Of a DNA stretch of 64,000 nt, positions 5,826 to 44,515 are shown one piece after another; the first letter of the stretch is position 1, and each line of letters opens with the position of its first letter. Position numbers and translations under genes: made by a program. The DNA is from Petrotoga mobilis SJ95 (GTDB lineage Bacteria; Thermotogota; Thermotogae; Petrotogales; Petrotogaceae): NCBI RefSeq assembly GCF_000018605.1, contig NC_010003.1, positions 1,402,501 to 1,466,500 of the forward strand, in the 5' to 3' direction. The notes beneath the pieces were generated by a model. That model did not search any database and was not told where the DNA came from. It saw only the letters and a list, made by a program, of their open reading frames with translations.

Positions 5826-6190
5826 TGTTTTTTTGTAAGCTGTGCTTAGTCTTTATTTGCGCCCCTTCGCCCCGCAGCCCACCCATTTAAGGAAGGGACC
5901 TACGGTCCCTTTAACCCAAACATTGAAGGGTAAACCCCTTAAGGGCTCCGTCCGCACCCATAAGGAAAAGAGGTCTTTATTTAGCGCCCTTCGCCCCGCA
6001 GCCCTCCCTTTTTAGGAAGGGACCTGCGGTCCCTTAAACTCTGCTGGGATGAGGGCTTCGCCCTGAGACTTTTTTAAAAGTGGAGCGTTTTTTGTGAGTT
6101 GATTGATTATAAGTTTTTTTGTAAGCTACGCTTAGTCATTATTTGCGCCCCTTCGCCCCGCAGCCCGCCCATTTAAGGAAGAGAGGGCTT
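5826..6190 (+). repeat. Dispersed repeat block 3
   Basis: The 440-bp gap between dprA and the TrmN6-like gene is filled with repeats: TAAGCTGTGCTTA, three GCGCCC cores with AAGGAAG tails, two GGGACC hairpins, an AGGGCTCC-like module and a short TTAAGGG palindrome. No promoter or gene could be separated from the repeat. The minus-strand start of dprA lies 70 bp away. Confidence 0.9.
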
Positions 6191-6194
6191 TCCT

Positions 6195-6893
6195 TTAACT
6201 GCGCTCCGCGCCCCATTCTGAGAGGAAGATTGGAGGGTGAATGAGCAGATTTCTACCTCCGTTTTTTCTGAATGTCAACGAGATTAGTTGGGCGTCTTTT
6301 TCTTTGTTTCCGTAGGCGATATATATGTGTTGAGGTTCTAAATTATTCTTTTCTAAGATTATTAATACGTCTGAAAGAACGTAAGGATGAATTATAAAAC
6401 AGCCTAATCCTTTGTTTTTTAAAAGGTATTTTGAAGCATAGATAAAATCTTCTAATACTTTTAAGTCTTCCGCTGATCTGGCGATTTTTCTATCGCTGAT
6501 TTGACTTTTTAATCCATCAAAGTAGTGTGGAGGATTTGAGATTATATAGTCTATAGATTCTGCGTCAAAATAGTTTTTGACGTTTTTTACTTCTGTATTG
6601 AGGAATTCTACGTTGTTTATTTCGTTTATTTCTTTGTTTTGTAAGGAGTATTCATATAGTTCTTTTTGTATTTCTATGCCTATTATTTTACTGTTTGTTA
6701 GCATTTTTCCAATTACAAGGCTGACGTGTCCTATGCCACTTCCGAGTTCGACGATGGTCGAGTTGTTTTTAGCCGGATGAGTGGCTAATAATAGTACACT
6801 TGCGTGTGTTGGTAGATGATGTTTGTTGGCTGTTTTTAGTTTTAGTGATCTGTAGATTTGGTCTATTTGATGGATTTTGGTGGTTGTGTCCAT
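6195..6893 (-). CDS. trmN6: TrmN6-like tRNA/RNA adenine N6-methyltransferase
   Basis: A 232-residue class I SAM-dependent methyltransferase. It shows the SAM-binding motif VELGSGIGHVSL near 48, an acidic residue at the end of strand 2 (IGIEIQKE near 75) and the catalytic ISNPPHYFDG motif near 118. The last is the NPPY-type signature of N6-adenine methyltransferases such as TrmN6, which modifies A37 of tRNA-Val in E. coli. The substrate here is inferred from family resemblance. ATG is preceded by the repeat core AAAGGGCGCTAACAC, so the only visible Shine-Dalgarno-like stretch (AAAGGG) comes from a dispersed repeat. The C-terminal residues GAERS also look repeat-derived. Confidence 0.75.
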   Translation of the reverse strand: MDTTTKIHQIDQIYRSLKLKTANKHHLPTHASVLLLATHPAKNNSTIVELGSGIGHVSLVIGKMLTNSKIIGIEIQKELYEYSLQNKEINEINNVEFLNTEVKNVKNYFDAESIDYIISNPPHYFDGLKSQISDRKIARSAEDLKVLEDFIYASKYLLKNKGLGCFIIHPYVLSDVLIILEKNNLEPQHIYIAYGNKEKDAQLISLTFRKNGGRNLLIHPPIFLSEWGAERS

Positions 6894-29157: not shown

Positions 29158-30108
29158 TTAGTTTTGTCTTCCCCTATCCCCATTAGTATATGAAATGAAT
29201 ATCTTTTCGAAATTCACCATTTGCTTTTCTATGCTTACTATTTCTACATTACGTGATTTGAAAAAATCCATAACCTCATATAATTCTGAAGATGTTTTGA
29301 AGTCAACTGTAAGGTCGTAAACGTTACCCTCTTTTGTCAATTCTGTAATGCCAATTTTATCAAGCTCTCTCTCTAAGGTATCTTCTGATCTTACTTTTAT
29401 CTTATAACCCGTTGCACTGAATACATCCATTAGCTTTTTCTTATCTTCACACACAACTATTTTCCCATTGTTTATTATTGCAACTCTATCCGCTATTTCT
29501 TCAACTAATGCCATATCATGGGTAGAAAGTAGAATACTTTTTCCTTTTTGTTTCACGTTTGTTAACAATTTTCTAAATTCTACATTAGAAATTACGTCGA
29601 GCCCAAGAGTAGGTTCATCCAATAGGAGAACATCAGTATCCGCTGCTAAACAAACAGCAAGGGCTGTTTTTTGCTGCATTCCCCTTGAAAGGGTATAAAC
29701 CACTTCGTTGGCTTTTTCTTTAATTCCCAAAAAATCTAAAATATCTAAGGCTTCATTTTTCGATATCTTTTTTCCCCTGATTCCAACAAAATACTGTATA
29801 TTTTCAATTGGGGTTAGCCTGTGATAAAGGTTCCTACTCCCTTCCAAAACTACACTTATCTGTTTAAGAGCTTTAGACCTCTCTGTTTTCAAATCATAAT
29901 CTTTTATTTTTATCTTTCCTTCATCGAAAACAAGAAGGCCACATATACTTTTGATGGTAGTTGTTTTTCCCGCACCATTTGGGCCAAGGAGTGCGAAGAT
30001 CTCTCCTTCTTTCACGTGAAATGAAATCTTATCTACCGCTGTAAGCATTTCTTTTGAAGTTCTTTGAGGGTATCTTTTTAGTAAGTCATTAACTTCAATA
30101 ACGTTCAT
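29158..30108 (-). CDS. ABC-2 type efflux ATPase
   Basis: A 316-residue ATPase of the antibiotic/peptide efflux type: Walker A GPNGAGKTT near 40, Q-loop VVLEGSRNLYHRLTPIEN near 86, signature LSRGMQQKTAL near 139, Walker B LLLDEPTLGLD near 162, H-loop STHDMALVEEIAD. A C-terminal domain of about 90 residues follows the nucleotide-binding domain. It is 15 bp downstream of the permease gene, and GGTGGTGA precedes ATG. The pair lies at the edge of the peptide locus and could export or give immunity to the peptide product; that role is inferred from position and from the shared promoter motif upstream. Confidence 0.88.
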   Translation of the reverse strand: MNVIEVNDLLKRYPQRTSKEMLTAVDKISFHVKEGEIFALLGPNGAGKTTTIKSICGLLVFDEGKIKIKDYDLKTERSKALKQISVVLEGSRNLYHRLTPIENIQYFVGIRGKKISKNEALDILDFLGIKEKANEVVYTLSRGMQQKTALAVCLAADTDVLLLDEPTLGLDVISNVEFRKLLTNVKQKGKSILLSTHDMALVEEIADRVAIINNGKIVVCEDKKKLMDVFSATGYKIKVRSEDTLERELDKIGITELTKEGNVYDLTVDFKTSSELYEVMDFFKSRNVEIVSIEKQMVNFEKIFISYTNGDRGRQN

Positions 30109-30123
30109 CTATTTCACCACCCT

Positions 30124-30885
30124 TTAATATTGTCCCAGAGTTCCTTTAACCATGGCACGTTTTTCAAAACCCCTGAATATAACTATTCCAACCAAAAGAA
30201 ATAACGCTGCAGCTATCCACAAAATAACGTGGTCTTGAATCGGGAACTGATAAAACTTTGTCCCTGTAACCGCCATTCTTCTCATCATCCCCGTTGCTTT
30301 TACCATTGGCAAAAGTTCAAACCAAAGCGCATCAACTTCAAACATCAAAATTGCAAGGAAAGCAAAAGTACATATTTGAATGAATGAAGAAATCTTTTTA
30401 AATATCAAAGCCATTCCTCCCAGAATTAAACCAACACCAACGGCACTAATTGAACCAAGAATAATTAAATAGAGAAGAGTAACAAGGTCAAAATTCAAAG
30501 TTCTTCCTGTTGTAAAAGCTGCTAAATACATTAAAGGTACTATCATTAGAACGTTTATACAAAAATCACTTATCACATGAAAAATCATTTGAAACTCAAA
30601 TTTTACTGGAGACATAAACAGTTGTTCCAAAGTTCCTCTTTCTGCCTCTTGAATTATCCAGTATGAAACACCTTGGAACGAAGCTAAAAACATTATCCAC
30701 ATGAAATAACTCACAATGATTCCATCAATGGTATCTCCAAAATCAGGCCCACTTGCTATCTTAAAGCCAAAAAATATAAGATAGAAAATGATGAAAAGTA
30801 TTATGAATGAAGAAACTGTGTCAAAAAAATATCTCTTCATTTCAATAAAAGTTTTCCTGAAATTTGCAACAAAAGCATTTACCAT
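30124..30885 (-). CDS. ABC-2 type efflux permease
   Basis: A 253-residue membrane protein with six predicted segments. It shows SYWIIQEAERGTLEQLFMSP near 74-93, the amphipathic coupling region seen in ABC-2 permeases. The start has GGAGGGATGAAGG just upstream. It is the first gene of the pair, with a 5' leader of about 150 bp from the promoter at 31042-31069. The leader sequence around 30972-31030 is repeated in front of the propeller gene at 34110-34190. Confidence 0.82.
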   Translation of the reverse strand: MVNAFVANFRKTFIEMKRYFFDTVSSFIILFIIFYLIFFGFKIASGPDFGDTIDGIIVSYFMWIMFLASFQGVSYWIIQEAERGTLEQLFMSPVKFEFQMIFHVISDFCINVLMIVPLMYLAAFTTGRTLNFDLVTLLYLIILGSISAVGVGLILGGMALIFKKISSFIQICTFAFLAILMFEVDALWFELLPMVKATGMMRRMAVTGTKFYQFPIQDHVILWIAAALFLLVGIVIFRGFEKRAMVKGTLGQY

Positions 30886-31041
30886 CCTTCATCCCTCCAT
30901 TTAAAAATAAAATAATAACTCACTTTTGTTTATATATTTTTTGATAATAACAAATATCTACTAATGTTTCAAGGCCATCCTTTGATTTAATCTTTGTTTA
31001 AATAGCACTTGCTAAAATTAATTTTTATACTTTTTAATTTC

Positions 31042-31069
31042 ATTATACCCTTTCCCATATGGTTTTCAA
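31042..31069 (-). promoter_or_regulatory. Shared promoter motif, copy A (efflux pair)
   Basis: Read on the minus strand: TTGAAA (31069-31064), 16 bp with CATATGG and AAAGGG, then TATAAT (31047-31042). The same arrangement occurs at 34196-34223 and 37997-38024. It points toward the ABC-2 permease gene. The gap 30886-31388 otherwise holds only the relic at 31119. Confidence 0.75.
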
Positions 31070-31118
31070 TTGTTTTTTTTATTGGCTTCAAAGATGTATT
31101 GATAAAGTATTATGGAGA

Positions 31119-31195
31119 GAACCTTCTGCTCTTTCTTTTTATGTTTTTGAAGGGGAAGAAAGAGAAGAGTTTGTTAAAATTAGCAACAATTTTTA
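31119..31195 (+). pseudogene. Relic of the 3' end of the TPR-regulator gene
   Basis: About 77 bp match the last codons of the TPR protein gene (39941-40017) with few differences. In one frame it still reads ALSFYVFEGEEREEFVK. It is joined directly to sequence (31047-31112) that matches the upstream region of that same gene (38002-38074). So it looks like a second copy of the divergent promoter plus regulator from which nearly the whole coding region was lost. The open frame that crosses it (31009-31590) uses another reading frame and is not a gene. Confidence 0.75.
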
Positions 31196-31388: not shown

Positions 31389-32447
31389 TCACATTTTTAA
31401 AGCATCTATAATTTTTTTGGACCAACTTTTCAATTCTTCATTATATTTCTTGCTATACGTAATTACGGCTTCGTTGTACGTTGAATATAACTTGGTTAAA
31501 TCTGACATACATTCAAGTAATCTTTCTTTTCCTTCAACCTTTTCTATTACTACAGAAACTTTCCAACCAACTGTGTACCAAGAACCTTGACCCCCATTAT
31601 TTGTCATTAATTCAAAACCTTCCTTATATAATTCCTCATTATCAGGAAACTCTTCATTTAATATCTTTAACAAAAAATTCTCTATTTTAGAGAAATCTTC
31701 ATTAAATCTTTTTATATTAACATCCCATATTTCTTTTAGGTCTTTGTAATACTTGTTTGGATGATTATCAGGGCCGCGAGCAGCCGCCAACATTGCAAAT
31801 CCTTCGGCAAATGCAGTCGTCCATTCTATTAGCATTTGTGCTTGCTTTGATAGATATTTATATTTTTCAGGTTTATGAACGTCAGAAAAACCAATATGAT
31901 GTAGTTCATGTATCAAAGTATTTTCCAATTTTTCTTTTGAGATATCCGGTGTTAAATTTAAAAACAAAACTAACGTATTTTCAATTGTATGTACGAAGCT
32001 ATTATTTAAAGGTTTTATAACAGGAATAATATAGGTTTCAATTTTTGCCTCTTTCGGAAGATAATTTTTGGTATCAAGAATAATACGTTCTATATCGATT
32101 GATTTGAGTAACTTATAAGCTCTCAAGAAATTTTCGTAATCTTTCAGAGGTCTTTCAAGTATAAAACTTTCCATATCACTGGATTTGGAGATCCCCATAG
32201 ATCTCAAAAAATTTTCGTATTTACTAACTTGACCCTCACCCAGCAAAAAAGACTTAAAATCACTTTCATTAGTTTCTTTTATCTTTAATTTTTCATACAT
32301 ATCATCATCTCTTTTTGCTAACCACTGATATCCTTTGCTTAAAAATAAATCTTCCCAATCAGATTGTGTGATAGTCTCGTTATTATGCATTTTTCCTAAT
32401 ATTTTCAGGACACATTCTACTTGATCGTAAATAAAATTCACACTCAT
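31389..32447 (-). CDS. Gluzincin-like zinc peptidase of the peptide locus
   Basis: A 352-residue protein of which I recognise only the metalloprotease core. LIHELHHIGF has the HEXXH zinc motif (residues 180-184), and WTTAFAEGFAML about 30 residues later gives the likely third ligand Glu215. This layout resembles the DUF2268/DUF5700 type of putative zinc peptidases. The N-terminal 140 residues are helical with two LRSMGIS/LRAYKLL-like repeats. There is no signal peptide, so it probably acts in the cytoplasm. AGGAGTG upstream fits ATG 32447 better than GTG 32456. It could cut the leader of a peptide precursor; that is inference from location. Confidence 0.7.
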   Translation of the reverse strand: MSVNFIYDQVECVLKILGKMHNNETITQSDWEDLFLSKGYQWLAKRDDDMYEKLKIKETNESDFKSFLLGEGQVSKYENFLRSMGISKSSDMESFILERPLKDYENFLRAYKLLKSIDIERIILDTKNYLPKEAKIETYIIPVIKPLNNSFVHTIENTLVLFLNLTPDISKEKLENTLIHELHHIGFSDVHKPEKYKYLSKQAQMLIEWTTAFAEGFAMLAAARGPDNHPNKYYKDLKEIWDVNIKRFNEDFSKIENFLLKILNEEFPDNEELYKEGFELMTNNGGQGSWYTVGWKVSVVIEKVEGKERLLECMSDLTKLYSTYNEAVITYSKKYNEELKSWSKKIIDALKM

Positions 32448-32525
32448 AATCCACACTCCTCATATGATATTTATTGCTGACTTCAGAATCTCTAACCCTT
32501 CTTTACCACTTCTTTACCCCGCTCC

Positions 32526-33029: not shown

Positions 33030-34079
33030 TTATTCATCTTTTAATTTTTCTATTATTGGTAAAGTTTGATATATCTGGTAGTTTTCTTTGGTAACTAATA
33101 TTAAAAATCCTCTGTGCGCCAATAATTTTATCGGTTTCTCTGTAAATGGTTCCTCGTTAAATATTTTAGCTGTATATTTCCCATCATCTTCTTCAACAAG
33201 TACAGCCATTTTGAGCTTGTTATCCGATATAGAATGGTAAAGTATGAAGATATTTCCTAATGAGTCGATCGCAAAACTGATAATCTCATCATCTTTCAAT
33301 TCTTCGACAAATATTACCTCAAAAAATCCTTGGGGGTAAGTGTATTGAAAAATATGGTTTGAAGAATCTCTAACAAATAAACTTCTTTCAAAAGTTAAGG
33401 CTTCTTCAAATTGTTGGGCATCTATACCTACGTATTTTATTCCTGCCGTTGCAGGAAATGAAGAAAGAATCTCACCTGAGATCGTCATCCTGATAATTTC
33501 ATTTTTCTTTTTATCGATAAACCAAAAATCTTCTTTCTTGAAAGACCCATTTTGAATAAATACATTAGTAGGCGGGGAAAGTAATAAGTCATTCTTTGAA
33601 TCAATTCCTACGTCTATTGTATTGACTAAATCACCTTCTAAAGAGAAAACAACTACTTCCTTTATTTTTTCCGAATAACCAACAAAGTACTCTGAACCTT
33701 CACCTGGTATCCATCCTAATTTTACAAAGATTAAGTTACTTAATTCGTAATCTTGATATTCTTCTTTCGGAAATGTGTGAGCAATACTGTGTGGTTCATA
33801 ATTATCAGGTTTGAGAACTGAGTAGATTTCGATAAAATTTTCCACAAGGAGGTTATCTGGATCTGAGTAAACATAAAACTTATTATCGAAAAAAGAAAAT
33901 GCATCAGTAATTGGGGAAGAATTATCACCGGCCGGAGCAAAAGATAAAGTAGAAGATAGAGAAATATTCATAAACATATTCTCCTTTGTTTCGTTAGCAA
34001 ATAAACTGCTAACACCAAAAGCGGTAAACACAAATAAAAGAACAAATAACATCATCCTCTTTTTGATAATCATTTTCAT
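33030..34079 (-). CDS. Secreted beta-propeller-like protein of the peptide locus
   Basis: A 349-residue protein with a signal peptide of about 28 residues (KKRMMLFVLLFVFTAFG.., ending SSLFA-N). The mature part is made of short beta-rich stretches of the kind seen in six-bladed propellers, for example VVVFSLEGDLVNTIDVG, IRMTISGEILSSFPA and FAIDSLGNIFILYHS, each with a turn of the form (S/D)xxG(D/N/E). The function is unknown. Its own promoter (34196-34223) is of the type shared in this locus, so it is likely co-regulated with the maturase and efflux genes. It might bind or sense the exported peptide; that is speculation. Confidence 0.6.
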   Translation of the reverse strand: MKMIIKKRMMLFVLLFVFTAFGVSSLFANETKENMFMNISLSSTLSFAPAGDNSSPITDAFSFFDNKFYVYSDPDNLLVENFIEIYSVLKPDNYEPHSIAHTFPKEEYQDYELSNLIFVKLGWIPGEGSEYFVGYSEKIKEVVVFSLEGDLVNTIDVGIDSKNDLLLSPPTNVFIQNGSFKKEDFWFIDKKKNEIIRMTISGEILSSFPATAGIKYVGIDAQQFEEALTFERSLFVRDSSNHIFQYTYPQGFFEVIFVEELKDDEIISFAIDSLGNIFILYHSISDNKLKMAVLVEEDDGKYTAKIFNEEPFTEKPIKLLAHRGFLILVTKENYQIYQTLPIIEKLKDE

Positions 34080-34195
34080 TAAACCTACTTCTCGTATTTA
34101 ATCTTTCTCATCCAACAACGTTCTAGTCCCATCTTTTGATTTAATCTTTGTTTAAAAAGCACTTGTTACAAGCAATTTTCATCTTTCCTACTTTT

Positions 34196-34223
34196 ATTAT
34201 ACCCTTTTCCATATGATTTTCAA
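34196..34223 (-). promoter_or_regulatory. Shared promoter motif, copy B (propeller gene)
   Basis: On the minus strand: TTGAAA (34223-34218), 16 bp including CATATGG, then TATAAT (34201-34196). It is preceded by an A-rich run ending in ACAG. The transcribed leader also matches the copy A leader over about 60 bp (AAACAAAGATTAAATCAAA). Confidence 0.78.
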
Positions 34224-34274
34224 CTGTTTTTTTAAAGGTTGACTCTATCACGAACATAATGGCTAATTAATCTT

Positions 34275-35993
34275 TCATACAACCAACTGACTTTCTATTA
34301 TTTCTTTGTAAATGGGGGCATTTTTTAATAACTCTTCGTGCATTCCTTCTCCTCTTATCTCTCCATCTTTCAACAGTATCACCTTGTCTGCTTTTCTTAT
34401 CGTTGATAATCTGTGGGATATTATTATCAAAGTCATCTCGTACTCTTTCAATTCATCGAATATTTCTTCTTCTGTTTGAGAATCTACCCCTGACGTTGCT
34501 TCATCCAGTATCAATACCTTTGGTTCCCTTATCAATGCTCTTGCTATCGCTACTCTCTGCCTTTGCCCATCCGATAACTTACTTCCCCTTTCTCCCACTA
34601 CCGTGTCGTATCCTTCATCTAAAAGCCCTATGAATTTATCTACCTTCGCTTTCTTTACCGCCTTCATGAATTCTTCTTGGGTGAATTCATCATCCAGCAT
34701 TATGTTTTCTTTGACCGTCATGTTGAATAAATAATCATCTTGCCTAACAATGGTAATATTTTTTCTTAATTGCTTCAGATTATATTTTTTAACATCTATA
34801 CCGTTGATCATCACTTTTCCTGTAGCGGGTTCGTAGAATCTTGGGATTAGATTAACAAAAGAGGATTTACCTGCACCACTTGTTCCAACAATTGCGACTT
34901 TTTCTTTTGTCCCAATGGTTAAGTTTATATCATGCAAGACAGTGCTGTCTTTATATTTAAAACAAACGTTCTCATAGGTAATAGGGTAATCATTATTAGG
35001 AAAAGATTTTCCTTCTCTCATGTTTTCTTCAGGGAAATCATGTATTTCAAAGATACGTTCTGAAACTTGTCGGACTCTTTGCATTTGAATATAGAAACTG
35101 CTAAGATTTCTTATAGGAGTAAATATCCAACCCAGGTATGCATAAAACCCCATTAGGGTTCCAAGAGTAGCATTTCCTTTTAATATTAGATATGCACCGT
35201 AACCAAGTATCAAAACAGGAATCAATTCATATATAAAAGACATGAAATCTTCAGCAGATTGATTAAGCATATTTAGCCTGTTTTTCTTCTTAACCCAAAT
35301 CCATGATATATAGGAGAATTGTTTTGAAAAAAAATTTTCTTTACAAAAAGATTTTATAGGCATAAGACCTTCTATTTTTTCTCTCAATTCCTCAGTAAGA
35401 TCACTGTAAGCGATCCTTTCTAACTCAGAACTTTTTTGAAGATTTTTATCAAATGCTCGAAGTGAAAAATAATAAAAAGGAACCATGATGAAGGTAATAA
35501 CAGCAAGTTGCCAATTTAGATATAACAAAACCAAAGAAACAACGATGAGTTGTATAATATTATAGGTGATTACTGAGATTCCTGCTCCAAGGAAAAAAGA
35601 AACTTCCAACGTATCGGAAAGCACTCTTGACATGAAATCACCAATTTTGTTATAGGAAAACTCTTTTATAGGGATCGTTAATATTTTTTTAAACATATAA
35701 ATTTGTTCATCTCTTGCAGCTAAATTGGTAGATTTGTAATAGCCATAATTGACAATAAAGGAAATTAACCTTTCAGATAATATTACGATGGTAAAAAGGA
35801 TAACAAATGGTAATATTTGCGAAAATTCATGGTTACCAATTATATCATCAATAAGATATTTGATTAAAAAGGGACTTAGAATAGAAACCAGTAACAATAA
35901 TGGTGTAAGAATCAGAGGAGTTTTCTGATACTTTAAGTATTTTTTGGAGTATTTTAACAATTTTCTCAAACTTCGATTATTTTCTTTTTTCAA
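34275..35993 (-). CDS. ABC exporter (fused permease-ATPase) of the peptide locus
   Basis: A 572-residue half-transporter: six membrane segments over about residues 28-295, then the nucleotide-binding domain with Walker A GTSGAGKSS near 367, Q-loop VRQDDYLF, signature LSDGQRQRV near 471, Walker B VLILDEATSGVD near 490 and H-loop ISHRLSTI. There is no N-terminal C39 peptidase, so it cannot itself cleave a leader. CAGGAGG at 35999-36005 selects the TTG start at 35993. A longer frame to 36068 would overlap the maturase gene. It begins 2 bp after the maturase stop, so the two are tightly coupled. It probably exports the modified peptide as a homodimer. Confidence 0.85.
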   Translation of the reverse strand: MKKENNRSLRKLLKYSKKYLKYQKTPLILTPLLLLVSILSPFLIKYLIDDIIGNHEFSQILPFVILFTIVILSERLISFIVNYGYYKSTNLAARDEQIYMFKKILTIPIKEFSYNKIGDFMSRVLSDTLEVSFFLGAGISVITYNIIQLIVVSLVLLYLNWQLAVITFIMVPFYYFSLRAFDKNLQKSSELERIAYSDLTEELREKIEGLMPIKSFCKENFFSKQFSYISWIWVKKKNRLNMLNQSAEDFMSFIYELIPVLILGYGAYLILKGNATLGTLMGFYAYLGWIFTPIRNLSSFYIQMQRVRQVSERIFEIHDFPEENMREGKSFPNNDYPITYENVCFKYKDSTVLHDINLTIGTKEKVAIVGTSGAGKSSFVNLIPRFYEPATGKVMINGIDVKKYNLKQLRKNITIVRQDDYLFNMTVKENIMLDDEFTQEEFMKAVKKAKVDKFIGLLDEGYDTVVGERGSKLSDGQRQRVAIARALIREPKVLILDEATSGVDSQTEEEIFDELKEYEMTLIIISHRLSTIRKADKVILLKDGEIRGEGMHEELLKNAPIYKEIIESQLVV

Positions 35994-35995
35994 TT

Positions 35996-37399
35996 TTATA
36001 CCTCCTGAGATGTGTTTTTGGCATATTCTAATAGCAACTCTTTTACAATTTGTTTTCGAATTTCGCAATCAGAGAAAGAAGGAACCATATTCCCCCTTTG
36101 CAGATAATTTGCGGAGGGGCAACTAGAACAATAATTTTCTAAATAACAGTTTTTACATTTATCGTATCTTGCCTTTTCAACCATTGCTTTTTGCTTAATC
36201 GCAAAGGTTTCTAAATTCATTTTTAACTTTTCTATATTTTCCCCAACATTTCCTATCCTAAATTTTTCCATTCCCACTAACATATGACAGGAATAAATGT
36301 CTCCAAATGTGTCTACTGCATAACTCTCTATTCCCCCATCACAGAAATATTTAGTGGGGGCATAATTTAGAACAGTATTTTCAACATGTTCTTTGAACTC
36401 ATCTATATTATATCTTGGATAAGAGGTTATGTTTTTTAAGGACTTTAACATTTTAACATCATATTCATGCAACATTTCTATTTCAACGTTTCTTGGCAAA
36501 GCCAAAGAAGGATCTTTAGAGATTACAGGAATTACAAAAACCAATGAATCCTTTAATCCTAATTCTTCTTTAAAATAATTTATTAAATCTGATGGTAATA
36601 TTCCTTTGTCAAAATGGATCTTTGTATAAGTAACTTCGATCGCATGAGGTTGACCGTATTTTTTTAAATAATTGAGATTACCAATCACGGAGTTATAAGA
36701 TGGTTTACCATTCTTAAAAGGTCTTAAAATATTTTGAATTTCAGAAGGTCCATCACAGCTAACTGTCAATCGTATTTCCGGATAATCTTGTAATAGTTTT
36801 GCAAACTTTTTCACTATTTCTTCAGGTACGCCTAATCCACTTTCTACAAGGAAATCTGGTTTCTTCTGAATAATTTTTTCGGAAACTAATTCTTGTATTA
36901 ATTTAATTGTGTACTCTATTAGTTCCAAATTTAATAAAGGTTCTCCACCAAAAAACTGGATCATCCCTATATTATCAAAAATTGAAAGAAAAGATTCCAA
37001 GCTGTTTTTTACAATTAGAGGTTTCATAAAAGAAGGGTGACCATATGTTCCTTTTTTTGCATAGCAATAAAGGCAACCTAACAAGCATTTTTGGGATATT
37101 AAGAGATTGAGCCGACGTAAGTTTTTACTTTCTTTTTTAAAATTTAAATCTCGAAATAACTCTATTAATTCATTTTCTAATTCAGGAGATTTATTTATTT
37201 CTTTTATAACGAATTTTTTTATTTCTTCTTGATTCTCTATTTTTAGAAGTTTGTCAAAGAATTCCATATGCTTTTTATCTAATGAATATGCGTTTAAAGT
37301 TGATTTATCCCATAAAACAGTGGCTCCATTTTTTTGGAACAAGAAAAGATCTTGTAGCCGTTCCCTTTTTGTGATTATCAAATCGAGTGCTTTGTTCAA
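35996..37399 (-). CDS. Radical SAM/SPASM peptide maturase
   Basis: A 467-residue enzyme. Residues 105-112 (CLLGCLYC) form the CxxxCxxC site for the radical SAM [4Fe-4S] cluster. The GGEPLL motif near 145 binds SAM. The C-terminal part has the SPASM cysteines: one in YFCDGG, one in YSCHM, then Cys415, 418, 424, 427 and 445 (CKNCYLENYCSSC..DC). The first 95 residues resemble the peptide-recognition (RRE-like) region of such maturases. Enzymes of this build install thioether or other crosslinks on small peptides. The start is TTG with an AAAGGA site. It lies 114 bp downstream of the precursor gene and next to an exporter. Confidence 0.88.
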   Translation of the reverse strand: MNKALDLIITKRERLQDLFLFQKNGATVLWDKSTLNAYSLDKKHMEFFDKLLKIENQEEIKKFVIKEINKSPELENELIELFRDLNFKKESKNLRRLNLLISQKCLLGCLYCYAKKGTYGHPSFMKPLIVKNSLESFLSIFDNIGMIQFFGGEPLLNLELIEYTIKLIQELVSEKIIQKKPDFLVESGLGVPEEIVKKFAKLLQDYPEIRLTVSCDGPSEIQNILRPFKNGKPSYNSVIGNLNYLKKYGQPHAIEVTYTKIHFDKGILPSDLINYFKEELGLKDSLVFVIPVISKDPSLALPRNVEIEMLHEYDVKMLKSLKNITSYPRYNIDEFKEHVENTVLNYAPTKYFCDGGIESYAVDTFGDIYSCHMLVGMEKFRIGNVGENIEKLKMNLETFAIKQKAMVEKARYDKCKNCYLENYCSSCPSANYLQRGNMVPSFSDCEIRKQIVKELLLEYAKNTSQEV

Positions 37400-37513: not shown

Positions 37514-37600
37514 TTATTTAGGAGCAGGTTGATTACCACAAGAACCAATTAAACATCCACAAGCGGGGACGTCTCTGCTCGTAGTGTTTAATTTTATCAT
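37514..37600 (-). CDS. Cys-rich RiPP precursor peptide (28 residues)
   Basis: A small gene with the strongest ribosome-binding site of the locus (AAAGGAGGTG, 8 nt before ATG). It encodes a leader of about 12 residues (MIKLNTTSRDVP) and a core ACGCLIGSCGN with Cys14, Cys16 and Cys21, then a Pro/Ala-rich tail ending PAPK. The CxC and a third Cys five residues on, among Gly and small residues, are what thioether-forming radical SAM enzymes act on. The next gene downstream is such an enzyme, then an exporter. An in-frame upstream ATG (37675) would give 53 residues but lacks as good a site. The product could be a sactipeptide- or ranthipeptide-like molecule; no known family was recognised. Confidence 0.8.
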   Translation of the reverse strand: MIKLNTTSRDVPACGCLIGSCGNQPAPK

Positions 37601-37781
37601 TATTATCCACCTCCTTTCATTTTTACTTTTTTCTACTTTCCCTGCAGGGTTACTTCTTGCCGGCAAATAATTCATAACCTCACAATCTTTTCCTTCAAAA
37701 ACTTATCTAGATACTTTCTTAAATCTTCTAAGCTTTTTCAAGCGTTGTTTTTTGTCTAGAGTAACTGACCTAAACAAGCAT

Positions 37782-37925
37782 TTACTCTACTTCTTCCACT
37801 ACATTTACAATCTCTGGAGGTTCTATACCATTTGTCTCATTTACTCCATCATTATCTCCTCCAAAAACAAAGATACCCCCTAACACCAGAACAGTGATCA
37901 ACAAAGCAACAAAAAATTTCTTCAT
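37782..37925 (-). CDS. Small secreted or membrane-anchored peptide (47 residues)
   Basis: The frame reads MKKFFVALLITVLVLGGIFV, then a Gly-Gly-Asp turn and an acidic tail of about 25 residues (ending NVVEEVE). So a signal peptide or membrane anchor is followed by a short, negatively charged exported part without Cys. GGGTGAAAGAGG precedes ATG. It is the first gene downstream of promoter copy C and is followed by the precursor gene. A short secreted peptide next to a TPR protein recalls the Phr/Rap or PapR/PlcR type of signalling, but it could equally be an immunity or accessory peptide. Confidence 0.65.
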   Translation of the reverse strand: MKKFFVALLITVLVLGGIFVFGGDNDGVNETNGIEPPEIVNVVEEVE

Positions 37926-37996
37926 CCTCTTTCACCCCCTTGAATTATTCTTTTAATTTAAAACTAATATCCCAAATAATTCAATCCCTCATTTTA

Positions 37997-38024
37997 ATCA
38001 TACCCTTTTCCATATGATTTTCAA
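37997..38024 (-). promoter_or_regulatory. Shared promoter motif, copy C (precursor operon)
   Basis: On the minus strand: TTGAAA (38024-38019), 16 bp with CATATGG, then TATGAT (38002-37997). It should drive the 47-residue peptide, the precursor, the maturase and the exporter. Between it and the first start lies an interrupted inverted repeat, TTGAATTATT (37940-37949) with AATAATTCAA (37975-37984). The remaining sequence to 38293 is the leader of the divergent TPR gene; no clear promoter was picked for that gene. Confidence 0.75.
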
Positions 38025-38293
38025 CTGTTTTTTTAATCGACTTCAAATATTTATTGATAAAGTATTACAGAGATCAGTCAAAAAAATACTTATGTTACAA
38101 TCAAACTCGATAATTTTTGTTATCTTTAAATTACTTATATTTTCTTTTTCTTTTTTTATCTGTATCGTGGTACAATTATGTTTGAATGGTTTCGATCTAT
38201 TTTTAGAAAATTTCTATGTTGAATAGAAGTAAACGAATATTCTATTATTATAACGCTGTGTAAATATTTCATGAGGACAGGGAGGTTCTTAGA

Positions 38294-40018
38294 ATGAATC
38301 TTCGATCTTTAATTGAAATTGTGAGTAAAGGGCAGTTCATAAGACCAATTTTAAATTATGTTATTCATTACTTAGAAAGTGATAGACCAGATAAAAATAA
38401 AAGCATCGTCAATTACATAAACGTTTTGAAATTAAAATGGGATGTTAAATACGATGAAGCCCTTGAGATAATAGATGGAGAGTTACAGGGGTTGAAGAAA
38501 GGTGGTTTATATTATCTTTTTTTGGATCAAAAAATTTATATATTGAATAGAATTAAACAGAAAGAGGACGTTAAAAAAGTATTCGAGGAACTAAAGGATA
38601 ATTTTGATAATATACCTGTTTATCTCAGAAGACTTGTTGTAGAAACTCTAAAAAATCTACATGAATTGTATTATGAATCCGATGAAAATATGGAAAAGAT
38701 AAGATATTGGAGTGAAAGTTATGAAAATACTCCTGCCACCAAAGGCTTCATATTACTATCGAAAGCAAGAGAGAAAAAGAACGAAGAAAGATACGATGAA
38801 GCAGTTTCTTTAAACATCGAAGCATTTAAGATTTTAAAAACCATTCCACATCCTTCTGGTATGGTACAAGCTTTAAATAATATATCTTGGTGGTTGAAAG
38901 ATACAAACAAAGAAAAAGCTTTAGCTTTTTCTTTTCCATTAGGATTCTATCTTGGTTACTATTTTCATGATAATAACTTTAATGTTTTCAATTCACTTGA
39001 TACTATATTTCAAGTACAGAAGAATAATAAAGATCCTTTGGTTTATGAGACCGCCTTCATTTTTTCACGTTTAGTTTCGTCGTTGAGTGGTGATAAGAAA
39101 AAAATAATCTGGAATGAGTTTGAATATACCATTCACGATGTCAGATGTTTTGTTTTGAATATTAGAAATAGAAATAGAAATTACTTAAACACAAAAACCT
39201 TGAGGACTTTCATAAGGAAAGAGATAGGAAAAGAAAAGATATCCATAGATTCAATAAACATTTCTGAAAGAACATTAAAAGAGTTTTTATTTGAAGAGAC
39301 ACAGTACATTCAACCAAGTATCTTGAGAAACATAATAGATGCTCTTGAGTTTGAAATCGATACATCCACACCTATATGTATAATCAAAGAATTGAAAAAG
39401 AAGGATATAGATAAGAAGTTTGAGATAAACCTTGAAAAGTTTAAAAACCTTCCGAAAGGAAGACAAATATCAGAATTCTTTACCTCTTACCTCATTCATT
39501 ACTACAAAGGAGAGATTGATCTAAAAAAGGTAATTAAAGAGATAGAAGATGACAGTTTAATTGAAGAAAGATGTGATTACTACACGAAAGAGTTAATAAA
39601 CTCTATCTTTGAAAGAAATCCAAAGATAGAGTTTAATTCTTTACTAACAAACGTTCAAAAACAAAGAATCTACACAAACAAAAATATAACCTTCAACGAA
39701 CATCCTTTTTATTTGGGAAGGAAAGAAGTTGTAAAAAGGTTTATGAAAGACTTAAATAAAAAGAATTTAAAAGAGTTCATAGAAAATTACATTGGTCTTG
39801 ATACAACACAAAAAAAGACGATAGAAAAGTTCATAATGAATTACGGTAGGTACTATGATTTAAAGGATATCCCCAAAGAATTCACACCGAAAGTGCCAGA
39901 AGAGATTAATCCATTCGTGAAAAAATATACGTTGAAAAGAAAACCTTTGGCTCTTTCTTTTTATGTTTTTGAAGGTGAAGATAGAGAAGAGTTTGTGGAA
40001 ATTATTGGCAATTTTTAA
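38294..40018 (+). CDS. TPR-like protein with possible HTH, putative peptide-responsive regulator
   Basis: A 574-residue soluble protein with no recognised full-length family. Residues about 1-260 look like helical TPR-type repeats (YDEALEIIDGELQGLKKG, RYDEAVSLNIEAFKIL). Residues 307-357 resemble an XRE-type helix-turn-helix (ISIDSINISERTLKEFLFEE followed by a second helix ending IIDALEFEI). The rest is charged and helical. Known RNPP regulators have the HTH first, so this order would be unusual. GGGAGGT precedes ATG. It is divergent from the precursor operon and shares its intergenic region, the typical place for a regulator. A 3' relic of a second copy lies at 31119. Confidence 0.6.
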   Translation: MNLRSLIEIVSKGQFIRPILNYVIHYLESDRPDKNKSIVNYINVLKLKWDVKYDEALEIIDGELQGLKKGGLYYLFLDQKIYILNRIKQKEDVKKVFEELKDNFDNIPVYLRRLVVETLKNLHELYYESDENMEKIRYWSESYENTPATKGFILLSKAREKKNEERYDEAVSLNIEAFKILKTIPHPSGMVQALNNISWWLKDTNKEKALAFSFPLGFYLGYYFHDNNFNVFNSLDTIFQVQKNNKDPLVYETAFIFSRLVSSLSGDKKKIIWNEFEYTIHDVRCFVLNIRNRNRNYLNTKTLRTFIRKEIGKEKISIDSINISERTLKEFLFEETQYIQPSILRNIIDALEFEIDTSTPICIIKELKKKDIDKKFEINLEKFKNLPKGRQISEFFTSYLIHYYKGEIDLKKVIKEIEDDSLIEERCDYYTKELINSIFERNPKIEFNSLLTNVQKQRIYTNKNITFNEHPFYLGRKEVVKRFMKDLNKKNLKEFIENYIGLDTTQKKTIEKFIMNYGRYYDLKDIPKEFTPKVPEEINPFVKKYTLKRKPLALSFYVFEGEDREEFVEIIGNF

Positions 40019-44350: not shown

Positions 44351-44377
44351 TTCATTTCTCCTCTCATTTCATAATTG

Positions 44378-44515
44378 TTAGCGCCCTTTCACCCCGCTCC
44401 CCACCCGTGAGGAAAAGAGTCTTTATTAGCGCCCTTTCACCCCGCTCCCCACCCGTGAGGAAAAGAGTCTTTATTAGCGCCCTTCCCCCGCCCCCACCCA
44501 TTTAAGGAAAAGATC
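44378..44515 (+). repeat. Dispersed repeat block, 48-bp tandem units
   Basis: Two perfect 48-bp units starting TAGCGCCCTTTCACCCCGCT and ending GAGTCTTTAT, then a third degenerate one (GCGCCCTTCCCCCGCCCCC). They lie in the leader of the MarR gene between its operators and its start codon. A further short piece in reverse orientation, GGCGAAAGGGCGCTAAA, is at about 44694-44710. Confidence 0.9.

Follow-up and report, generated by a model that had tools for sequence, protein, structure and literature searches.

Does a reading frame of 28 residues in the genome of Petrotoga mobilis SJ95 (2,169,548 bases) encode a peptide, and if so, what would be made of that peptide and how would its production be switched? 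The question was addressed in a stretch of 64,000 nucleotides, referred to here as the window, in which the frame and its immediate neighbors are arranged as follows.

37514..37600, minus strand: precursor gene MIKLNTTSRDVPACGCLIGSCGNQPAPK, 28 aa, ATG start at 37600, TAA stop ending at 37514
37608..37617, minus strand: Shine-Dalgarno sequence AAAGGAGGTG of the precursor gene, 5' of its ATG in the upstream sequence
35996..37399, minus strand: radical SAM/SPASM maturase (467 aa) that begins at a TTG preceded by AAAGGATGTG; Pfam PF04055 at 1.7e-16
34275..35993, minus strand: ABC exporter with membrane and ATPase domains (PF00664, PF00005), its TTG start at 35993 set from homology in the relative G037

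The initial annotation had proposed a 28-residue precursor here, preceded by a ribosome-binding site and carrying three cysteines, two as CxC and the third five residues on. All of this has held up: the frame is present on the minus strand and is conserved in three relatives, the cysteines are residues 14, 16, and 21 (C-x-C-x4-C), and the sequence upstream of the ATG reads ...GAAAGGAGGTGGATAATAATG, with a strong ribosome-binding site at 37617-37608. An in-frame upstream ATG would yield an ORF of 53 aa, but this form is disfavored and the 28-aa form preferred, because of the position of the Shine-Dalgarno sequence and the point at which homology begins in the relatives. These relatives, MIKLNSMSKYVLACGCFIGSCGNQPAT (G050), MMKLNTSSRVVPACGCGIGSCGNKPKT (G037), and MTKLNTSSRVVPACGCFVVSCGNKPKT (G051), were found by a six-frame search of 103 Thermotogota genomes at E values of 1e-8 to 1e-9; they are 69-77% identical to the 28-mer and keep all three cysteines. 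Synonymous codon changes are enriched among them, and dN/dS is ~0.15-0.5, a range that has low statistical power given just 25 codons. Since three relatives retain every cysteine and the dN/dS range lies below 1, the frame is taken to be more than a chance ORF.

The peptide was also claimed to be paired with a maturase, and this is supported, since the adjacent radical-SAM/SPASM enzyme is kept with the peptide in relatives. In G050, a 90% identical maturase adjoins the peptide, and in G037, a 63% identical maturase lies ~800 bases downstream of it. The absence of the frame or its cysteines from relatives that keep the maturase had been named as fatal to the reading; both relatives with a close maturase retain the frame and all three cysteines. 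In G051, the peptide lies where a contig stops and no close maturase is found in the assembly, and three further genomes of the genus (G047-G049) have neither peptide nor maturase. The ~800 bases between precursor and maturase in G037 resemble a mobile or repeated non-coding element (L024:9232-9691); similar stretches are present in L127, L128, and L132 and recur in the P. mobilis genome.

In contrast, the "clean leader/core division" seen by the initial annotation is not supported by the comparison, as the N-terminal half is as conserved as the core. Conserved cysteines with a variable leader had been expected; among near relatives, the cysteines are indeed conserved but so is the leader, and in the paralogous branches both differ. 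Nevertheless, a short encoded precursor that adjoins its modifying enzyme and is conserved jointly with it, the arrangement that marks a RiPP, is what is found. The 28-residue gene is thus judged to be real, encoding a tiny Cys-rich peptide beside its own predicted radical-SAM enzyme and exporter, and its assignment as a putative precursor of a radical-SAM-type RiPP is strongly supported.

The maturase has the features predicted for a SPASM radical SAM enzyme: the CxxxCxxC motif (C105, C109, C112) and seven SPASM cysteines (C353, C371, C415, C418, C424, C427, C445) are conserved over 46 sequences. Its predicted structure has a pLDDT of 91, and its nearest solved structure is CteB (5wgg), with an E value of 1.9e-22 by sequence and 6e-22 by fold. 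No curated model reaches its cut-off for either the precursor or the maturase. The 28-mer has no match in Pfam or NCBIfam scans; the best NCBIfam score of the maturase is with the PapB model (149.1 bits vs a cut-off of 340), and the SCIFF (ScfB-type) model gives 126.6 bits vs 425. Membership in SCIFF was therefore rejected, given this score and only three cysteines, and membership in the PapB-type ranthipeptides was rejected given the PapB score and the absence of Cys-X3-Asp.

In the proposed pathway, the ribosome would make the 28-mer as a precursor, which a radical-SAM enzyme would then modify. The maturase would most likely link at least one of the three cysteines, via a sulfur-carbon thioether, to nearby core residues (ACGCLIGSCGN...), the leader would be cleaved, and the adjoining ABC protein would export the product, which would likely act as an anti-competitor peptide or a colony signal. 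The product may be a sactipeptide, with links from sulfur to alpha-carbons, rather than a ranthipeptide or another crosslinked peptide, a reading given slightly less than an even chance. The core contains no Asp or Glu acceptors and a link to an alpha-carbon does not depend on any particular side chain, but the nearest solved enzyme, CteB, and the top-scoring model, PapB, represent enzymes that form beta- or gamma-carbon thioethers (PMC8326336, PMC8172795).

The initial annotation could match the peptide to no named class. This stands for the 28-mer, which fits no named precursor family, but not for the system as a whole, which has a relative in the TM1316 peptide/maturase locus of T. maritima. 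Thermotogota maturases at 33-41% identity have other short peptides with three cysteines nearby: MFELNSKAKMNPAGGCGGIGCGACAALRT and MIELKSKESRTPSGGCGGKGCGNCGAVMR, which represent a second type in Petrotoga; MKKVLIPVETDVTTSSGCRGYAICGSCKDGKLTP, together with two similar peptides; and MQKMPKPVVPNDYLNPGKGCGGAGLVCGWCG, in a T. maritima-type genome. The last of these scores 84.5 bits with the NCBIfam model NF033413 RiPP_TM1316, for which the cut-off is 35. The 28-mer gives no match to this model at E values up to 10 and, falling below the cut-off, was rejected as a member of that precursor family. Furthermore, all nine Thermotogota maturases in the tree form one clade (support 100/96), each near a three-Cys peptide of 27-35 aa, and the order of a divergent TPR gene followed by small ORF, precursor, radical-SAM gene, and ABC gene is common to Petrotoga, Kosmotoga-type, and T. 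maritima-type genomes. Because the nine maturases are one clade and its other members lie beside three-Cys peptides that include RiPP_TM1316, the locus is, by sequence comparison, a Petrotogaceae branch of the Thermotogota TM1316-type system with a different Cys spacing. With TM1316 as the nearest known system, the kind is known and the 28-mer variant is new; a literature search on Petrotoga and RiPPs found nothing. Beyond the phylum, the nearest maturases (~30% identity) are from Firmicutes and archaea and have longer precursors, some with three cysteines, e.g., ...CGGGCWGIGCVG; these maturases fall outside the Thermotogota clade and were set aside.

How the operon would be switched depends on features upstream of the precursor and on copies of one of them elsewhere in the window.

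37782..37925, minus strand: 47-aa secreted small ORF, candidate pro-pheromone (MKKFFVALLITVLVLGGIFVFGGDNDGVNETNGIEPPEIVNVVEEVE), first gene of the operon, with paralogues and orthologues in the same place
37993..38073, minus strand: promoter/operator block of ~80 nt between the 47-aa ORF and the TPR gene
38294..40018, plus strand: 574-aa TPR protein, predicted peptide-sensing regulator, divergent from the operon, with a central Cro/C1-type HTH region at residues ~300-370
34192..34272, minus strand: second copy of the block, upstream of the gene at 33030-34079
33030..34079, minus strand: 349-aa protein with a signal peptide; G050 has a homologue where its second three-Cys cluster lies (L026:915-1976)
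31038..31118, minus strand: third copy of the block, beside a TPR-gene 3' remnant and facing an ABC pair at 29158-30885

The product of the 47-aa ORF is hydrophobic at its N terminus, and its tail is short and hydrophilic. Small ORFs of this kind were sought by an ATG, GTG, or TTG start with a ribosome-binding site, K/R and then a hydrophobic stretch, a hydrophilic tail, and a divergent position within 900 bases. Across the phylum, 34 TPR genes had enough upstream DNA, and 26 of them passed; among the other genes of these loci, used as controls, 5 of 178 did (p 2e-21), with the proviso that the 34 are not independent events because close paralogues are among them, even though the pattern recurs in several families. 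Thus, a candidate pro-peptide gene beside the sensor, as expected of RRNPP systems, is present.

The TPR protein belongs to a family found in 55 of the 103 Thermotogota genomes, and a single genome can hold as many as 14 matches. The window protein itself has no Pfam HTH match, and its HTH domain was assigned by alignment to relatives. In the T. maritima-type homologue, TPR_12 and the Cro/C1 HTH_26 are above curated Pfam cut-offs, and the HTH (HTH_26/HTH_3, residues about 285-335) follows the TPR part; other relatives give weaker HTH matches in the same place. The N-terminal HTH of RRNPP proteins other than Rap is therefore not found, as the HTH sits behind the TPR repeats. The predicted structure has a pLDDT of 90, and a Foldseek search with it gave no match under 1e-3. 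By structural alignment (VIA), the first 290 residues match best the peptide-bound Rap protein of phage Phi105 (Z 16.9, 269 residues aligned), and the list includes NprR (Z 12.8), other Raps, and AimR; this match is suggestive only, because TPR proteins outside RRNPP score as well (up to Z 15.2).

The block at 37993-38073 contains TTGAAA (38024-38019), a 16-nt spacer, and TATGAT (38002-37997), reading toward the peptide operon, and an inverted repeat, ATCATA-N10-TATGAT, overlaps the spacer and the -10 element. About 12 copies are present in the genome (E below 1e-5), three of them inside the window. Radical-SAM matches are enriched around the copies, with 11 of 32 lying within 5 kb of one when ~1.5 would be expected (p 1e-7). 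The copies precede RiPP and ABC-exporter operons, and the operons near them hold different maturases, together with different Cys-rich peptides and exporters. The models nearest to these maturases include AlbA, Clo7bot, CcpM, and StsB, none of which reaches its cut-off.

Several other observations concern these surroundings. Further Cys-rich precursor-like peptides, e.g., MAEIDVDPEGIGCLACAGCLFPCLICVADGPIPVADSVGLTAGAKAIFAAGVAA, lie by other radical-SAM maturases of the same genome (L126:914-1072 and 6025-6364; L133:5211-5414 and 6315-6479; L130:6809-6982; L132:4350-4532). The TPR-gene remnant beside the third block copy (31116-31195, plus strand) is a 3' end of 86% identical DNA, left by duplication and decay of the cassette. 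Between block copies lies a DUF5700 putative zinc peptidase (31389-32456, minus strand, E 3.6e-30), which could be a processing protease. A tandem 48-nt unit, TTRTTAGCGCCCTTTCACCCCGCTCCCCACCCGTGAGGAAAAGAGTCT, occurs at 44375-44498 as two full copies and one partial copy.

In streptococci, SHP/Rgg pairs control radical-SAM RiPPs (PMC12445099), which suggests an analogous switch in Petrotoga. In this RRNPP-like quorum sensing, the secreted 47-aa product would serve as a pheromone, being processed and re-imported as a signal; the peptide would bind the divergently encoded TPR-HTH protein, and this protein would in turn bind DNA at the repeated promoter block, switching the operon. RiPP production is probably switched by such a peptide-sensing module, and the operon appears to be one of many peptide operons here that are switched by a previously undescribed sensor-pheromone pair. 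It is considered probable that the locus as a whole specifies a radical-SAM RiPP of the TM1316-type branch that is exported and under a peptide-sensing switch. The broader model, in which Thermotogota have their own family of TPR sensors (HTH behind the repeats) paired with divergent pro-peptides, as many as a dozen or so pairs in one genome, and in which every pair drives its own radical-SAM RiPP or exporter operon from a shared block, with the 28-mer as one output, is favored by a small measure.

A rather unlikely alternative retains the RiPP but holds that the cassette is not used for quorum sensing: the TPR-HTH protein would sense, for example, nutrients or stationary phase, and the small ORF would encode an accessory peptide resembling a lipoprotein, or an immunity peptide. 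Genes for processing or import were not identified next to the small ORF, and it is weakly constrained between Petrotoga paralogues (dN/dS about 0.5-1). However, small ORFs almost unrelated in sequence keep the same place, orientation, length, and shape in distant families, as reflected in the 26 of 34 TPR genes vs 5 of 178 controls; their shape, a signal stretch and then a short hydrophilic tail, e.g., GGDNDGVNETNGIEPPEIV, resembles that of the PapR pro-peptides that PMC12445099 gives for the PlcR/TprA family; and Rap proteins with bound peptide rank highest among the structural matches of the TPR protein. In G050, a stop interrupts the small ORF and only remnants of the TPR gene are left, and the precursor and maturase are intact. 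That the 28-mer is a chance ORF before the maturase, with the true precursor elsewhere, such as the 47-aa ORF, is highly improbable, for although the frame is very short and missed by all family models, three relatives keep every cysteine amid many synonymous changes, the ribosome-binding site is ideal, and equivalent peptides occupy the same slot near related maturases.

A peptide-sensing switch for these operons would have consequences beyond this locus. A limited literature search found no description of the regulator/small-ORF/promoter cassette and no paper linking RRNPP-type signaling with Thermotogota, and the recurrent cassette is a more surprising part of the system than the peptide. 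The TM1316 peptide of T. maritima, with its radical-SAM/ABC operon, was reportedly described by Frock et al. in 2013 and is said to be made mainly in stationary phase. Such signaling, if true, would explain this timing and would extend RRNPP-type peptide signaling beyond Bacillota into a deep-branching phylum. In addition, the TM1316-like RiPPs of thermophiles, which have hardly been studied, gain in the 28-mer a new and very short type of three-Cys precursor, and the matched enzyme/substrate pair, coming from a high-temperature organism, is useful for obtaining stable radical-SAM enzymes.

Among known systems, the T. maritima TM1316 locus shares the gene order, from the divergent TPR gene through the secreted small ORF, three-Cys peptide, and radical-SAM/SPASM enzyme to the ABC protein, and a maturase of the same clade; it differs in that the precursor sequence is not recognizably similar, the maturases are 33% identical, and the cysteines are spaced Cx6CxxC (Cx4-6CxxC in related systems) rather than CxCx4C. 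The CteB/CteA SCIFF ranthipeptide system is alike in maturase fold and SPASM cysteines, but its precursor has six cysteines in about 45 residues. PapB/PapA (freyrasin) supplies the top NCBIfam score of the maturase, below the cut-off, whereas the precursor here lacks the Cys-X3-Asp motif and has no Asp in its core. For the PlcR/PapR-type RRNPP sensors, Rap, NprR, and AimR, the likeness consists of a suggestive match in TPR fold, rather than in sequence, and of a neighboring secreted pro-peptide; the domain order differs. Finally, the SHP/Rgg RaS-RiPPs (streptide, streptosactin; PMC12445099) are likewise RiPP operons beside a TPR-HTH gene and a small pro-peptide, with several cassettes per genome; they belong to another phylum, and the predicted Petrotoga regulator carries its HTH after the TPR repeats rather than at the N terminus and has an extra C-terminal domain.
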